From an uncultured Ectothiorhodospiraceae bacterium (GTDB lineage: Bacteria > Pseudomonadota > Gammaproteobacteria > UBA6429 > Thiohalophilaceae), in contig CAMYJG010000022.1 of the NCBI GenBank assembly GCA_947258695.1, forward strand, positions 1-40,172: DNA of 40,172 bases. The letters run 5' to 3'. A program made the translations under genes and the position numbers. The notes under the pieces are model-generated. The model made no database searches, was not told the origin of the DNA, and worked only from the letters and a program-made list of their open reading frames with translations. This document shows, in pieces, positions 2,167 through 22,237 of this stretch (the first letter of the stretch is position 1; each line of letters opens with the position of its first letter).

Positions 2167-5100
2167 TCATGGTTTAATGACTGAAATTTTTCCACCCAAA
2201 CTCCTCGCCACAACCCCCCTATCATACATCGACTCCCCAAATGTCGGTGGTACTTTATAATCACCCACGTTAATGGCTTTAATGCGGTAAACAAATTCTT
2301 GTACGTTTGAAGCTACCGTACCAAAGACAATCATGCGATCTTCGCGTGAATCCACATACTGCGGGTTCCAGCCTGACTGGTTATTACGCAGGTCTTTATC
2401 CAGCACCACTTCAAAGCCACCCGGGAGTAAATCAACCACGGCAACGTTGTAATGCGTTTTATTATCCAGCGCCCTGACTTTAAGGTAGACATAGGCTTCT
2501 TCACCTAAAGTCACTTTATCAATCACGTCACCTTTAGCATTGCGGTATTCACGTTGCACTTCAAGCTGTTCTTTAATGTCTTTCACCGGCAGGGCTTTAT
2601 CAAAGCCGGCTTGGGTGACCTGGTAGAACAAGTTGTGATCATCTTCAGAATCAATATGAATCGCTTTGGCTTGTTCGGTAAACGGTATTTGTGGGAATAA
2701 CCCTGGTGGTATACCCAGTTCACGTTTTTCTTTACTTGCCAGTACTTCCTGAATTTTCAATTTCATTTTAGCAGGTGTACCGGTTGCGGTGGCATAGGTA
2801 TCCAGTGCAAGAATCACCGATGCAGATGACAAGGTATTAAAGCGACCCCGTAATACCGGTTGTACCAGTTTTTCCAGTTCATCGGCTTCTATGTCTTCTA
2901 AGCGATCGGCAAAGTGATACGACAGGATATACAGCAAGTGTGCATCACGTAATAGGCCATCGTAGAAATATAGGTAATTAATCTTTTGAGGATCACCTAA
3001 GAAATATAGGTAATTAATCTTTTGAGGATCACCTAACTTAGACTTCTTAATGATTTTATTGGCTTCCTTATCAAGACGTAACATCTTGTAGGTTGCAGCA
3101 ATATAAATTCCGGTGAGATCTTTTTCCCAGTCTTCCGGTTTCATTTCTTCTGCCAGTTCTTTTCTTAAGCCATCGAGCATACGTGTTGTCACCATGCCAT
3201 TACGGGTTAAGACATAGATCGCATAGGCGCGATCACGTGCCTGGGATAAAGAAGTAATTTGCCTTGCTGCCAGCATCGCCAGGAACTTCATTCCCTTTTT
3301 AAGTAAATCACGCGGAACCGGATAACCACGCTCCTTAGCTTCGGTTAAGAAATGTAATGCATACACCGATTGGTAATTCGATACATGCGAGTTGGCTGAC
3401 CAGAAACCAAATGCCCCTTCCGAGTTTTGTCTGCCTCTTAGTACCCGAATAATTTGTTGCAGGCTTTTTTCAACATCACCTGTTTTATAGGAAAACTCGG
3501 GCCTGTCACGTAACACAATGGCAGGGAAGGTACGACTTACCAGTTGCTCGGTACACAGGTAAGGATAGTTACCGAGGTAGTTCACCAGGCCGCGTGCCAT
3601 ACCCAGTGGTACCGGTGATGCAGTGACTTCACGTTTGCTAAAGTGAGGATACATATCACGATCAACCACGACATCAACATTATCATCCTGCAAGTAACCG
3701 CCGGTGACTTTTGTCATATAGGGCACCGCCGGTCTGACACTAAGATCAACCCGGTAACGACTTTTCTTAACGCCCTCTTTACCTTCATGACTAACGATAA
3801 AGGTAAATCGGCCTGAACCGAGCACATCATTCGCTTTAATTTTATAGCGAGTACTTTGTTCCCGCCCTTCGCTGATACTTAGTTTCTGGGTTGCGTCGGT
3901 TAACACTTTTAAGTGTTTTGAGGTATCAAGTTTCACAGTAACCGGCGCATTCTCACCTGATTTCTCCAAGTTATTAGCGACATTAACACTGACGCTGAAC
4001 TCATCACCCGGGGCAACAAAGGTCGGTACGTTTGGACTGATAATAAAGTGTCCTCTTACCAGGGTATTATTTTTGGCGACACCAATGGCCTGGTCAGCAA
4101 CAGCTACTGCCATAATGCGTAACTTGCCATTAAAGTGATCTGGCACCGAGTAAACCACTTCACCTTTACTACCATCGGTTTCAATAATGCCCGACCAGAA
4201 CACGACCGGTTTCTTTTGTTTTCGTTGGAATGGATTTAAATTTTTACCCAGTGCTTCCATTGCCATATCACCACCACCGGGTGCAGATAGGGCTTTAACC
4301 AGGTCAAACTCGGGCAATAATAAATCAAGTATTTGTGATGTTTTAACTTCCAACGCTTTCTTTTTAAAGAAGTGCGATAACGGGTCAGGCGTTTTATAAT
4401 CTGCGACCTGCAAGATACCTTCATTCACCGCGAACACTACCAGTTTACCCGGGCGTTCTGTTTCATATTGTATTTTTAGATCTTCACCAGGGCGGGCAAT
4501 ATCCGGAACAGACAAATCAACTTTGTTGACCCGTGCAGATCGATTCACGGTAAACGGCATCACGCCGTAACTCAGTGGACTCATGAAAATTTCTTTTGAG
4601 TCCGGTGCACGGATAAAACTGACATTAACATAACCGTTGCCTTCTAAATCAAACGGCACGGTGATGCGTTGTACTGAACTGCTGGTGGTGGTTTTAAACC
4701 ATTTGTAGGCATAGACACGATCACGTTCGATTGTGATTAACCCTGCTCCCACGTAAGGCGCTTTAATTTGTAATTCAATCTCATCGCCCGGGTCAAAATC
4801 CGTTTTATTGAGTTTAATTTGTAACTCGGAATTTTTATCTAAACTTCTTGCCAGGTTGGCATCACCTACCACCGAGAAATTGATCTGGTTTAACTCGGTA
4901 TCATTACCATCACGAATAATCAGAGTGAACTCACCGGCCTTATCGGTTGGTAAATTGTACTTGGTACCCGTGTTAGCAATTTTCAGTGCATCACGTTTCA
5001 GTGATGTTTTCTTTTTAACCGACTGGTATTTATAAGTACCGTCATTTTGCTTGGTTAACACCGAGACATGACGTTGCTCGATCAGCTCCATCTGCAATCC

Positions 5101-7935
5101 GGACACATCCATCTTGTCTAAATCTGGTGATACTGCAAGTAAATCTACACTGCGTTCAGAGTCTTTATGAATGTAATTTAGCTTTCCATCAGATTTATAA
5201 CCAATTAAATAAGCCAGTGGTGAAACTAGCACCGAGCGTTCCGCAGATACCCCGCGCCCACCTTCTGCTTCATAACCTTGTGTAGTTAAACTTAAGCGAT
5301 AGGTTGCTTTTGCAAAACGGGTTAAGTCGATATCAAAAACGGATATGCCTTTATCATCGGTTTGGCTATCACTTAAACGTTCACTAAAGGAATGCTTGGC
5401 GCGCAGAGGATCATAAAAACGGTAGTCTTTATATTGTCTGAAGTACGGTTTTGCAGGTGCAAGTTTAATACTGGCGGCGATTCGTCTGTTTGCAGCCGGT
5501 ATACCATACAGATTTTGTAAAGAGACCCGGCCCTGTAAACCTTCGGGAGATATCCAGCCCTGTTCTCTTTCTTTGGAGAAGCGTGTCTGGATTTTCATCC
5601 TGTCTGGAATAAACTCTTCAACCCTCACCGTGGTTGAACCGAGTAAGTTTCTTCTCCGCTTATCTTTTATTAAATAAGCATAGATGCTGTATTCACCCGT
5701 GGGTGAGGTGTATTCAGTTTGATAGTTCACTTCTTCAAAGCCACTATCATCGAGTTTTAATTTTTGTTTCTTAATCGTTAAGCCACGGGCATCGTTGATC
5801 ACGATTTCCATCGGCAGACCTTCGAGCTCTTTATCCCAGTCTCCCGAACGCACGATCATACCAACATTAAATTTATCCCCTGGACGATAAATGCCACGAT
5901 CTGAAAACAGGTAAGCATTAAGTTTTTCTGCCTTGCCTTGCTGGTAGATACCACCGGTATCAAAGCGGGAGAAGTTAAGGTTTCTGTTGCCTTTATTATA
6001 GGGAATAAACGAAACGTCCTGCCCTTTTGTCACCAGGTAAGCCACTGGTTGTTTCTCGCGTTTAAGATCTTTAAACGAAGGGAAACTGGCGCGACCGCGG
6101 TTATTGGTGAGCACCTTGTGTACCGCGATACCATTTTTACCTAGTATTTCAACTGAGGCATTGGCCACCGGTTTGCCGGTATTCAATGATTGTACAAAGA
6201 CATCATGTGTTTTATCGGCGTTATCTTTTACCAGTATGCCAAGATCGGTTACCAGGATTAAACGTTTATCGGATGCACCCGATGCCCGTTTACGTTTTTC
6301 ATCCCAACGTTGTACCTTGAAGAAAAACAGCCCGCGTTTTTTACCGATGCTGTCCAGCTTAAGGTAAGGCGAAAAATCAAACGCGGTGTATTGTGCTTTT
6401 TCCGGGCCGGTTGCCTGTAACGTGCGGATGTCGGTAAAGCGATCGGTAATGTTGTCCGCGCTAAAATTATAATTCTCAAAATAATGACTTAAGAAATTAC
6501 CATTCGACTGGCTCACCAGGTGATTAATCTGCCCGGGTAAAACACGCCCGACTTCAAACTGAACCGACTTGATACCGCGGGAAACTATCGAGAGCTTTCT
6601 TTCGCCGCGCATACCCAAGATTGCGCCCTGGTGCATGATTTTCAGTTCTCTTGGGAACTGCGGTACACGTTTAACATTTTCAGACTGGTCGGCAAGAATA
6701 TAACCACCAAATGATTTTGTTCCTTTTTTGATATTTATATATAAGGAACGACCCACATCCGCTTTATAACGGAAACTATGAATGCTTGAATACTCATGCT
6801 CGGTTGGAATTGCTTCAAGTTCAAGTTTGCGCGCAAAACCGAGAATGTATTGATCAACATCTTTTGCTCGCCAGTAACGATAATTTTTCCTCGCACGTCT
6901 GCCCTGTGTTGCAGGAAGATCTCTGGGTAACTCGTAAACAGTAATGTTTTTTTGTAATTCTTTTTCTAGTACACCCGCGGTCATTTCTACAATCAGGACT
7001 TGTTCAGGTTCATTACGTTTATTTCTAACGAGCGTTGGGTTAATGTTTGCGACACGGAAATAATTATACATGCCCGGAATGTTGACCAGTGCTTCAAAGT
7101 CTCTTTCCCAGGCATCACCACCCCGGCTTGACTTATAGCCACCTTCAACTTCAACTTTTACCGCTTTATCTTTTAAGGGTATCTCTACCGGTTCCGATTG
7201 CAGGTAGGCTTCACCATTAAACTTGTTATAAGTGATATTAAACTTAACTTTTGAACCTTCGCGTAAAACACCGGCTTTTTTATCCATCAACACCATATTG
7301 ACACTGGATTCAAAAGATTCTTTATCGACTGGGTGAGAAAACTTTACCGTTGAGACGATACGCTTGATCGATGGATCGGTCGGGTCCTGGTGAAAATAAG
7401 TATTTAATAATTGGGCTGTGAACATGGCCGAGCTGAATCGGTATTCATATTCACTTAACCTGGCATGACCAGGAAAAAAATCTTTTTCGAACTTAACCAC
7501 GTATTCCTGGCCAACCGCCCAGTCTTGTTCGGGGGTAAATTCCAGCTGGCTGTCATTATTCCATTTCCACCGACCTTTTATTGCCGGAGAAAGTGTTATT
7601 CCATCAGATATTGTCTTGCCTATTTGCTTTAACTCGGCGGCGGAACCACTAAAGTTTACATAGACAGAATCGAATTCCGGGTCTTCTTTCAATTCAGTCA
7701 GTGAAGGGGCGGTACCGGTGATATGTATTTCTATAGGTTTAGGTAACGAGTCATACCAGATTAAACCTCCATAACCGATAATGGTAAATACGAGAGTTAA
7801 CCAGACAACATTCTTATTTTTTCTACGCCATTCCAGTCCTTTATTAAATCCATTACTGATTAACTGAAGCCAGGGTGGAAACTTCCATGAAAACGAGCCA
7901 AAGAAGAAAAAAAGCACTTTTTTAATAAAACCCAT
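2167..7935 (-). CDS. Bacterial alpha-2-macroglobulin family protein (YfhM-like), membrane-anchored
   Basis: This 1922-residue protein starts with a basic segment and one hydrophobic helix (about residues 43-61), then a periplasmic chain of macroglobulin-like beta domains. The sequence around residue 1461 reads YPYLCTEQ: CxEQ is the reactive thioester motif of alpha-2-macroglobulins, by which these proteins trap proteases covalently. The following region, with VSNYQSVYALHFLTEAKERGY, fits the alpha/alpha-toroid thioester domain. In E. coli the homologue guards the periplasm and is paired with pbpC, but no penicillin-binding protein gene is adjacent here, so any partner must lie elsewhere. Length is in the usual range (about 1600-2000). 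A 12-residue segment (LGDPQKINYLYF) is repeated exactly in tandem near residues 1634-1657. Confidence 0.93.
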   Translation of the reverse strand: MGFIKKVLFFFFGSFSWKFPPWLQLISNGFNKGLEWRRKNKNVVWLTLVFTIIGYGGLIWYDSLPKPIEIHITGTAPSLTELKEDPEFDSVYVNFSGSAAELKQIGKTISDGITLSPAIKGRWKWNNDSQLEFTPEQDWAVGQEYVVKFEKDFFPGHARLSEYEYRFSSAMFTAQLLNTYFHQDPTDPSIKRIVSTVKFSHPVDKESFESSVNMVLMDKKAGVLREGSKVKFNITYNKFNGEAYLQSEPVEIPLKDKAVKVEVEGGYKSSRGGDAWERDFEALVNIPGMYNYFRVANINPTLVRNKRNEPEQVLIVEMTAGVLEKELQKNITVYELPRDLPATQGRRARKNYRYWRAKDVDQYILGFARKLELEAIPTEHEYSSIHSFRYKADVGRSLYINIKKGTKSFGGYILADQSENVKRVPQFPRELKIMHQGAILGMRGERKLSIVSRGIKSVQFEVGRVLPGQINHLVSQSNGNFLSHYFENYNFSADNITDRFTDIRTLQATGPEKAQYTAFDFSPYLKLDSIGKKRGLFFFKVQRWDEKRKRASGASDKRLILVTDLGILVKDNADKTHDVFVQSLNTGKPVANASVEILGKNGIAVHKVLTNNRGRASFPSFKDLKREKQPVAYLVTKGQDVSFIPYNKGNRNLNFSRFDTGGIYQQGKAEKLNAYLFSDRGIYRPGDKFNVGMIVRSGDWDKELEGLPMEIVINDARGLTIKKQKLKLDDSGFEEVNYQTEYTSPTGEYSIYAYLIKDKRRRNLLGSTTVRVEEFIPDRMKIQTRFSKEREQGWISPEGLQGRVSLQNLYGIPAANRRIAASIKLAPAKPYFRQYKDYRFYDPLRAKHSFSERLSDSQTDDKGISVFDIDLTRFAKATYRLSLTTQGYEAEGGRGVSAERSVLVSPLAYLIGYKSDGKLNYIHKDSERSVDLLAVSPDLDKMDVSGLQMELIEQRHVSVLTKQNDGTYKYQSVKKKTSLKRDALKIANTGTKYNLPTDKAGEFTLIIRDGNDTELNQINFSVVGDANLARSLDKNSELQIKLNKTDFDPGDEIELQIKAPYVGAGLITIERDRVYAYKWFKTTTSSSVQRITVPFDLEGNGYVNVSFIRAPDSKEIFMSPLSYGVMPFTVNRSARVNKVDLSVPDIARPGEDLKIQYETERPGKLVVFAVNEGILQVADYKTPDPLSHFFKKKALEVKTSQILDLLLPEFDLVKALSAPGGGDMAMEALGKNLNPFQRKQKKPVVFWSGIIETDGSKGEVVYSVPDHFNGKLRIMAVAVADQAIGVAKNNTLVRGHFIISPNVPTFVAPGDEFSVSVNVANNLEKSGENAPVTVKLDTSKHLKVLTDATQKLSISEGREQSTRYKIKANDVLGSGRFTFIVSHEGKEGVKKSRYRVDLSVRPAVPYMTKVTGGYLQDDNVDVVVDRDMYPHFSKREVTASPVPLGMARGLVNYLGNYPYLCTEQLVSRTFPAIVLRDRPEFSYKTGDVEKSLQQIIRVLRGRQNSEGAFGFWSANSHVSNYQSVYALHFLTEAKERGYPVPRDLLKKGMKFLAMLAARQITSLSQARDRAYAIYVLTRNGMVTTRMLDGLRKELAEEMKPEDWEKDLTGIYIAATYKMLRLDKEANKIIKKSKLGDPQKINYLYFLGDPQKINYLYFYDGLLRDAHLLYILSYHFADRLEDIEADELEKLVQPVLRGRFNTLSSASVILALDTYATATGTPAKMKLKIQEVLASKEKRELGIPPGLFPQIPFTEQAKAIHIDSEDDHNLFYQVTQAGFDKALPVKDIKEQLEVQREYRNAKGDVIDKVTLGEEAYVYLKVRALDNKTHYNVAVVDLLPGGFEVVLDKDLRNNQSGWNPQYVDSREDRMIVFGTVASNVQEFVYRIKAINVGDYKVPPTFGESMYDRGVVARSLGGKISVIKP
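2965..3036. repeat. Perfect 36-bp tandem duplication inside the alpha-2-macroglobulin gene
   Basis: Positions 2965-3000 and 3001-3036 are identical 36-base units placed head to tail. The duplication keeps the frame and repeats 12 residues in the toroid region after the thioester. The two units show no difference at all, which implies a recent event, active homogenisation or an assembly artefact. Confidence 0.95.
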
Positions 7936-18183: not shown

Positions 18184-18666
18184 TTATAGTACACAACCCA
18201 GATGCTCTTCAATAAATTCGCGCACACAACCATAACCACCATTATTCGTTAACACCACATCAACGATATTTTTAATTGCAGGCATGGCATCTGCGGGACA
18301 AGCAGTAAAACCAACCGCATTAATAATGTCACGATCATTAATGTCATCGCCAATATAAGCGACCTCTTTCAGGTCGATATCTATCTCGGCGCACCACTGT
18401 TCTAAAATATTAATTTTAGGATCGGTGCCAACATAAAACCGCTTAATACTTAATGTTTGTGCACGGCCTTCAATAATTTTTGTTTTAAAACCGGAGCTGA
18501 GCAATCCTACTTCAACGCCCTGTTTTTGCAACTCAATAACACCACGGCCATCTTTAGTGTCGAAGCGTTTAAATTCTTCACCACTTTCTGTGTAGTACAT
18601 ACCACCATCAGTTAGAGTGCCATCAACATCCAGGCCTAAAAATTTAATATCTGTTCTAAGTGTCAT
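18184..18666 (-). CDS. HAD phosphatase, second KdsC-like / ulosonate-phosphate phosphatase
   Basis: This 160-residue protein belongs to the small cap-less HAD group that hydrolyses 8-, 9- or 7-phosphates of 3-deoxy-ulosonic acids (KdsC, KDN-9-P phosphatase). Motif I is LDVDGTLTDG (Asp13, Asp15), motif II LLSSG, motif III Lys84, and motif IV YIGDDINDRD (Asp107, Asp108). The TDGGMYYTESGEEFKRFDTKDG segment resembles the KDN-phosphatase branch more than classical KdsC. I choose the ATG at 18666, which has AAGG upstream. The frame extends to 18753, but those residues are translated from the REP-like repeat at 18688-18764. It is the second such phosphatase in the window, besides kdsC at 21704. Confidence 0.85.
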   Translation of the reverse strand: MTLRTDIKFLGLDVDGTLTDGGMYYTESGEEFKRFDTKDGRGVIELQKQGVEVGLLSSGFKTKIIEGRAQTLSIKRFYVGTDPKINILEQWCAEIDIDLKEVAYIGDDINDRDIINAVGFTACPADAMPAIKNIVDVVLTNNGGYGCVREFIEEHLGCVL

Positions 18667-18687
18667 ACTATTGAACCTTATTTGCAC

Positions 18688-18764
18688 GTCATTCCCGCGA
18701 AGGCGGGAATCCAATACTGAACATATAACGCTATAGATTCCGGCTGAGAGCATACCGGAATGAC
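18688..18764. repeat. REP-pair palindrome between the phosphatase and DAHP-synthase genes
   Basis: Unit one (18688-18712) folds by CATTCCCGC with GCGGGAATC, and unit two (18736-18764) by GATTCCGG with CCGGAATGAC. The outer parts GTCATTCC and GGAATGAC are inverted to each other. The design matches the palindrome at 9396-9467. A related fragment (CATTCCCGCGG) occurs near 20851. It lies inside the three-gene unit and may act as a post-transcriptional stabiliser or be a simple insertion. Confidence 0.75.
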
Positions 18765-21703: not shown

Positions 21704-22237
21704 ATGAAAGATATTTTAGACAAAGCAAAAAAAATAAAAGTACTGATTTTTGATGTCGACGGTGTACTCACTGATGGCAGCCTGATCGTTGATGATGATG
21801 GCAAGGAATATAAAGCTTTTTATTCAAAAGATGGGCTGGGAATAAAAATGCTGAAGAAAACCGGTGTTGATATTGCGGTTATCACCGCCCGGACATCTAA
21901 CGTGGTTATTCACCGTATGAAGAATCTTGGTATTAAACACATCTACCAGGGGCAACTCGATAAGCTACCTGCATTTGAAAACATATTAAAAGAATTAAAC
22001 CTGTCAGCAGAACAGGCTGCCTATGTTGGCGATGATGTTATTGACCTGCCCGTCCTGCTGCATGCAGGTTTAGCGGTGACTGTTGATGATGCTCACCCCC
22101 TGGTTAAACAACATGCTCATTGGCAAACCCCACGTCGTGGAGGTCGCGGAGCAGCACGTGATATTTGTGAACTCATTATGCAGGCACAAGGCACGCTTGA
22201 ATCACAGCTGCAAAATTATTTAGGCGATAAGCTTTAA
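21704..22237 (+). CDS. kdsC: 3-deoxy-manno-octulosonate-8-phosphatase
   Basis: KdsC removes the phosphate from Kdo-8-phosphate. The 177-residue protein has HAD motif I (IFDVDGVLTDG), VITARTS as motif II and YVGDDVIDLPVL as motif IV. The VDDAHPLVKQHAHWQTPRRGGRGAARDICELI tail is a signature of true KdsC and is missing in the second phosphatase at 18184. It starts two bases after kdsB and overlaps lptC by one base (TAATG), so it belongs to the kdsBC-lptCAB operon as in many gammaproteobacteria. Confidence 0.97.
   Translation: MKDILDKAKKIKVLIFDVDGVLTDGSLIVDDDGKEYKAFYSKDGLGIKMLKKTGVDIAVITARTSNVVIHRMKNLGIKHIYQGQLDKLPAFENILKELNLSAEQAAYVGDDVIDLPVLLHAGLAVTVDDAHPLVKQHAHWQTPRRGGRGAARDICELIMQAQGTLESQLQNYLGDKL

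Follow-up and report, generated by a model that had tools for sequence, protein, structure and literature searches.

The alpha-2-macroglobulin gene of an uncultured Ectothiorhodospiraceae bacterium carries an exact 36-bp tandem duplication that keeps the reading frame. We interpret it, with a probability of roughly 0.78, as a lineage-specific in-frame micro-duplication that was tolerated in a length-variable loop of a protein that is most likely still a protease trap.

An exact in-frame tandem copy in an alpha-2-macroglobulin gene

The gene (1922 codons) occupies positions 2167..7935 on the minus strand of the window, the whole 40,172-nucleotide stretch of DNA analysed here, and was delimited from its open reading frame (ORF), Pfam domains and CTEQ thioester motif. 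Tandem Repeats Finder identified a perfect repeat at 2964-3036 (period 36, 2.0 copies, 100% matches, score 146), made up of two adjacent head-to-tail units, 2965-3000 and 3001-3036, that are the same at all 36 letters. On the minus strand, the first copy in gene order is located at 3001..3036 (residues 1634-1645, LGDPQKINYLYF) and the second at 2965..3000 (residues 1646-1657, identical to the first). Both copies are in frame, encoding the same 12 residues twice across residues 1634-1657, and the 1922-amino-acid reading frame stays open across them. The repeat search, the identity of the units and the open frame thus confirm the exact 36-bp tandem duplication at 2965-3036 that had been described from the sequence alone. 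By chance, approximately 1e-13 exact runs of 36 would be expected at periods 15-400 across 1.24 Mb (a rough figure that assumes equal base frequencies), so coincidence is negligible. The matching run is 73 bp long rather than 72, which makes the position of the breakpoint uncertain by 1 bp, and there is no larger homology at the junction. Allowing up to three mismatches, no further copies of the 36-mer were detected elsewhere in the 3,215,845-base draft genome (estimated to be 95% complete); as the 36-mer occurs there only at the two tandem places, a dispersed or mobile repeat was ruled out.

Seven Pfam families (bMG3, MG2, bMG5, bMG6, the bait region A2M_BRD, A2M, and bMG10) were identified within residues 562-1905 of the protein, every one above its cut-off, while residues 1-561 had no Pfam match at E 0.001. 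A phmmer search matched the protein to 4rtd (E 3e-53), and it is the sole match to the alpha-2-macroglobulin family in the genome. In its neighbourhood lie hisD and two ORFs that matched no Pfam family at E 1e-5. The CTEQ motif is located at residues 62-65 of the segment that was folded (see below), with C, E and Q invariant across 36 aligned sequences, and the doubled unit lies in the thioester domain approximately 170 residues past this motif. Under the two-type scheme given in PMC5764988, the protein is a type I (thioester-bearing) bacterial alpha-2-macroglobulin.

Copy number in relatives and the predicted loop

The genus is represented in our sample by eight genomes, including this one. 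All three of the other same-genus genomes that reach the site (G001, G006, and G005) have one unit; the remaining four (G002, G003, G004, and G007) gave no match to the repeat region and were not counted either way. A genome from the same family (G015, approximately 50% identical) also has a single unit, and no second or decayed copy was found in nine more distant loci that were aligned, which are part of the distant loci found. A scan of a genome collection with two peptide patterns, which is not exhaustive and may omit records close to the window's own genome, returned 41 loci, including contigs of G001, G006, G005, and G015. Thirty-six of these loci, three of them from the same genus, span the loop and were used, while L088-L092 end before it and were left out. 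All 36 spanning homologues have a single copy, and their loops are 10-18 residues long compared to 24 in the window. A decayed double copy in relatives was ruled out, as none was present in the 36 spanning loci or the nine aligned distant loci. Among the sequences compared, the second unit is private to the window sequence, at a place where length varies in the family. A literature search yielded nothing on this loop, judged by title or abstract beginning among the matches listed, and no structure-function data were found.

The checks proposed in the sequence-only reading included a comparison with sister strains and structure models with one and two units. The first returned one copy in the relatives covering the site, as described above. 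For the second, a segment comprising the thioester and C-terminal domains (2170..3738, minus strand; residues 1400-1922, with CTEQ at segment residues 62-65 and the doubled loop at 232-260) was folded using AlphaFold with 35 homologues, the partial L079 having been dropped from the 36. The model of the doubled form had a mean pLDDT of 90.0 and a pTM of 0.90 over residues 1400-1922, and a single-copy model built from the same sequences headed by L053 had a pLDDT of 90.8 and a pTM of 0.89. All 14 thioester-domain helices (segment residues 44-319 in the window) are common to both models and their order is unchanged. In the model, the added residues extend the loop that connects helix 223-231 to helix 261-275, and the CTEQ motif stays in place. 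Confidence in the doubled loop is low, with pLDDT values of 64 and 66 for segment residues 231-240 and 241-250 compared to 93 and 93 in the single-copy model. Foldseek matched the modelled segment to 4ziu (E 1.8e-30, TM 0.78 on the query), and at a pLDDT of 90.0 the thioester and C-terminal domains have the predicted fold of a type I alpha-2-macroglobulin. The sequence alignment to YfhM does not include the loop, which therefore could not be located on a solved structure in this way. Together, Pfam, phmmer and Foldseek support the earlier identification of the gene as an alpha-2-macroglobulin, and the structure model agrees with the earlier placement of a 12-residue in-frame copy in a helical thioester domain.

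Origin and age of the duplication and competing explanations

The reading that we favour builds on the duplication and its frame, its absence from the relatives examined, the variation in loop length and the core helices kept in the model. Tandem copies of this kind usually come from replication slippage or template switching, and the 36-bp copy most likely arose by one of these routes, which would have lengthened one loop between two thioester-domain helices from 12 to 24 residues. The duplication would have been tolerated because the length of this loop was already variable within the family. Because the helical core and the thioester motif are kept in the predicted model, the protein most likely still functions, presumably trapping proteases in the periplasm, and the duplication is probably near-neutral. 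The sequence of the junction does not point to a particular route: the microhomology is only 1 bp, and although TAGGTGAT and ATTACCTA can form a hairpin within the unit, shuffled sequences fold equally well (z 0.10; 98 of 200 shuffles). Folding of the 101-base repeat region is weaker than the average of its shuffles (z 0.76), and the corresponding unit of a relative folds to no hairpin. Duplication driven by a hairpin was rejected, since the unit folds no better than its shuffles.

Codon comparisons gave a dN/dS of 0.064 against L006 (1061 codons) and 0.067 against L026 (683 codons), indicating that the gene is under strong purifying selection. Nucleotide identity is 0.83 to L006 and 0.84 to L026 (a divergence of 0.16-0.17 per site), and dS is 1.0 and 0.88, respectively. 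From these sequence comparisons, the duplication is younger than the split from the species carrying L006 and L026. It had been claimed that zero divergence between the copies marks a very recent event. This claim is weakly supported, and "very recent" is an overstatement because the 36 sites, 7.0 of them synonymous, bound the divergence only loosely: with no differences, the 95% upper bounds are 0.08 for all sites and 0.35 for synonymous sites. The identity of two copies of 36 sites is therefore weak evidence for a very recent event.

We consider it unlikely that the second copy is an assembly artefact, in which two overlapping ends were joined but not merged, by the assembler or during gap filling, so that 36 bp were written twice. 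The source genome is a draft of 164 contigs, four runs of N (8, 20, 37, and 63 bases, one of them within a 9-bp array) occur in 1,238,046 bases, although N may also be masking, and all 36 spanning homologues have one copy, each of which is compatible with an error. Furthermore, a contig ends inside the alpha-2-macroglobulin gene in six of the seven other same-genus genomes (G001, G002, G003, G004, G006, and G007), compared to 3.3 expected from contig density (P 0.03, from rounded figures). The gene may be hard to assemble, since contig ends inside it exceed expectation; the excess among the sisters perhaps reflects strain variation or a badly assembling stretch. However, the array of 73 bp is shorter than common short reads, which should therefore resolve it, the copy keeps the frame, for which the chance is one in three, and it falls in a loop of variable length. 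We also scanned 61 stretches one by one at periods 15-400 (1,238,046 bases including the window, approximately 38% of the genome), a scan that would miss copies across stretch borders or units longer than 400 bp. On these stretches Tandem Repeats Finder returned 67 rows, and among the 31 with a period of at least 20 the alpha-2-macroglobulin repeat alone had 100% matches; the next best were an 85-bp array in stretch L034 (98%) and a 24-bp repeat in L102 (92%). Outside 9- and 15-bp arrays, exact tandem duplication of a unit of at least 30 bp was otherwise found only in that 85-bp array, which lies between two tRNA genes, making the alpha-2-macroglobulin repeat the only exact non-array coding duplication of at least 30 bp in the 1.24 Mb sampled. 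An assembly generally prone to exact tandem copies was not seen in the 61 stretches. Even so, one extra copy that keeps the frame and falls in a loop of variable length is better explained by a true event that was tolerated than by an error.

The scan and inspection of the window also revealed other repeats. The 85-bp array (L034, G000:C3, 7256-7522; 3.1 copies at 98%) separates the minus-strand genes for tRNA-Cys and tRNA-Leu (taa). Within it, the string cgccacctgggc, which is complementary to the 5' end of tRNA-Leu, is found at intervals of 85 bp (at 7256, 7341, 7426, and 7511). The array resembles the rtT repeats of E. coli tyrT, although those repeats contain the 3' end of a tRNA instead. 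L100 (G000:C8, 13658-13949) has a 109-bp unit in 2.7 copies at 90%, each unit including one G-rich and one C-rich stretch, and L108 (G000:C16, 7054-7288) has a 9-bp unit array (ACACGAAGA) broken by 37 N. In the window, a palindromic element beginning CGTCATTCCCGCGAAGGCGGGAATCCA extends from 18687 to approximately 18766 and is read into the N-terminus of the ORF at 18184-18753 as ..SRLRGND.., which we take to be a familiar translated repeat; a 27-base pattern of this element has one exact match in the genome, at this site only. Judged by eye from their translations, this ORF (minus strand) and another at 21704-22237 (plus strand), approximately 3 kb apart, both resemble KdsC-type phosphatases.

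It is very unlikely that the longer loop was selected, altering the contact of the thioester domain with the trapped protease or the C-terminal domain. Such an adaptive doubled loop, longer than in all 36 compared homologues, would reshape the thioester-domain surface and, if real, change the set of proteases or partners that the protein handles. The unit does lie in the thioester domain and in a fast-changing stretch, five of its 12 residues differing from L006, with at least as many differences in 18 of 1050 overlapping twelve-residue windows. However, relaxed constraint also gives a fast-changing loop, the length and sequence of the loop vary among the 36 homologues, and the doubled loop is predicted at low confidence. 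We found no evidence in support of the earlier suggestion of a tuning change. It is highly improbable that this is a contingency repeat in which tandem units are gained and lost: the head-to-tail copies are exact and in frame, but there are only two of them, a change by whole units keeps the frame and so cannot switch the gene off, and no other copy number was seen in the 36 homologues, none of which is known to be from the same species.

The most likely explanation is the tolerated duplication: an in-frame tandem micro-duplication of an ordinary kind, private to the window sequence and located in a loop of a protein from a known family. Alone it is of little importance, yet it marks a thioester-domain loop of bacterial alpha-2-macroglobulins that differs in length (10-18 residues in the 36 homologues, 24 here), which is of use for aligning the family or for placing tags.

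Comparison with known systems

The window protein has Pfam families of alpha-2-macroglobulins in common with ECAM/YfhM of E. coli (PDB 4ziu, 5a42, 4rtd, and 4ziq) and Sa-A2M of Salmonella (4u48), and all of them have the CxEQ thioester motif. According to PMC4498604, in ECAM the CXEQ motif serves the thioester bond, and RDDR and EXMY serve contacts of the C-terminal domain; the C-terminal domain of the window protein has REDR and ESMY, which resemble these two motifs. Over the modelled segment, the window protein is only 19-21% identical to the E. coli and Salmonella structures, and it differs from these proteins in its 24-residue loop with the doubled unit. YfhM is a lipoprotein, whereas in the window protein, read by eye, the region near the N-terminus shows a hydrophobic segment (WLTLVFTIIGYGGLIWY) and no obvious lipobox. 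PMC5764988 describes type I genes that adjoin the PBP1c gene in a number of bacteria. In the genome studied here, by contrast, the best PBP1c match is on contig C37 and the alpha-2-macroglobulin gene on C22, so that the two are not adjacent; this adjacency is seen in a number of bacteria and is not required for membership of the type.

As for the duplication itself, the adjacent exact copies, the kept frame and the single copy in relatives are as expected of an in-frame tandem micro-duplication. Compared to in-frame coding micro-duplications of the slippage type, no feature was shown to differ: the window has the same exact head-to-tail copy, a length divisible by three, a position in a variable loop and a single copy in relatives.
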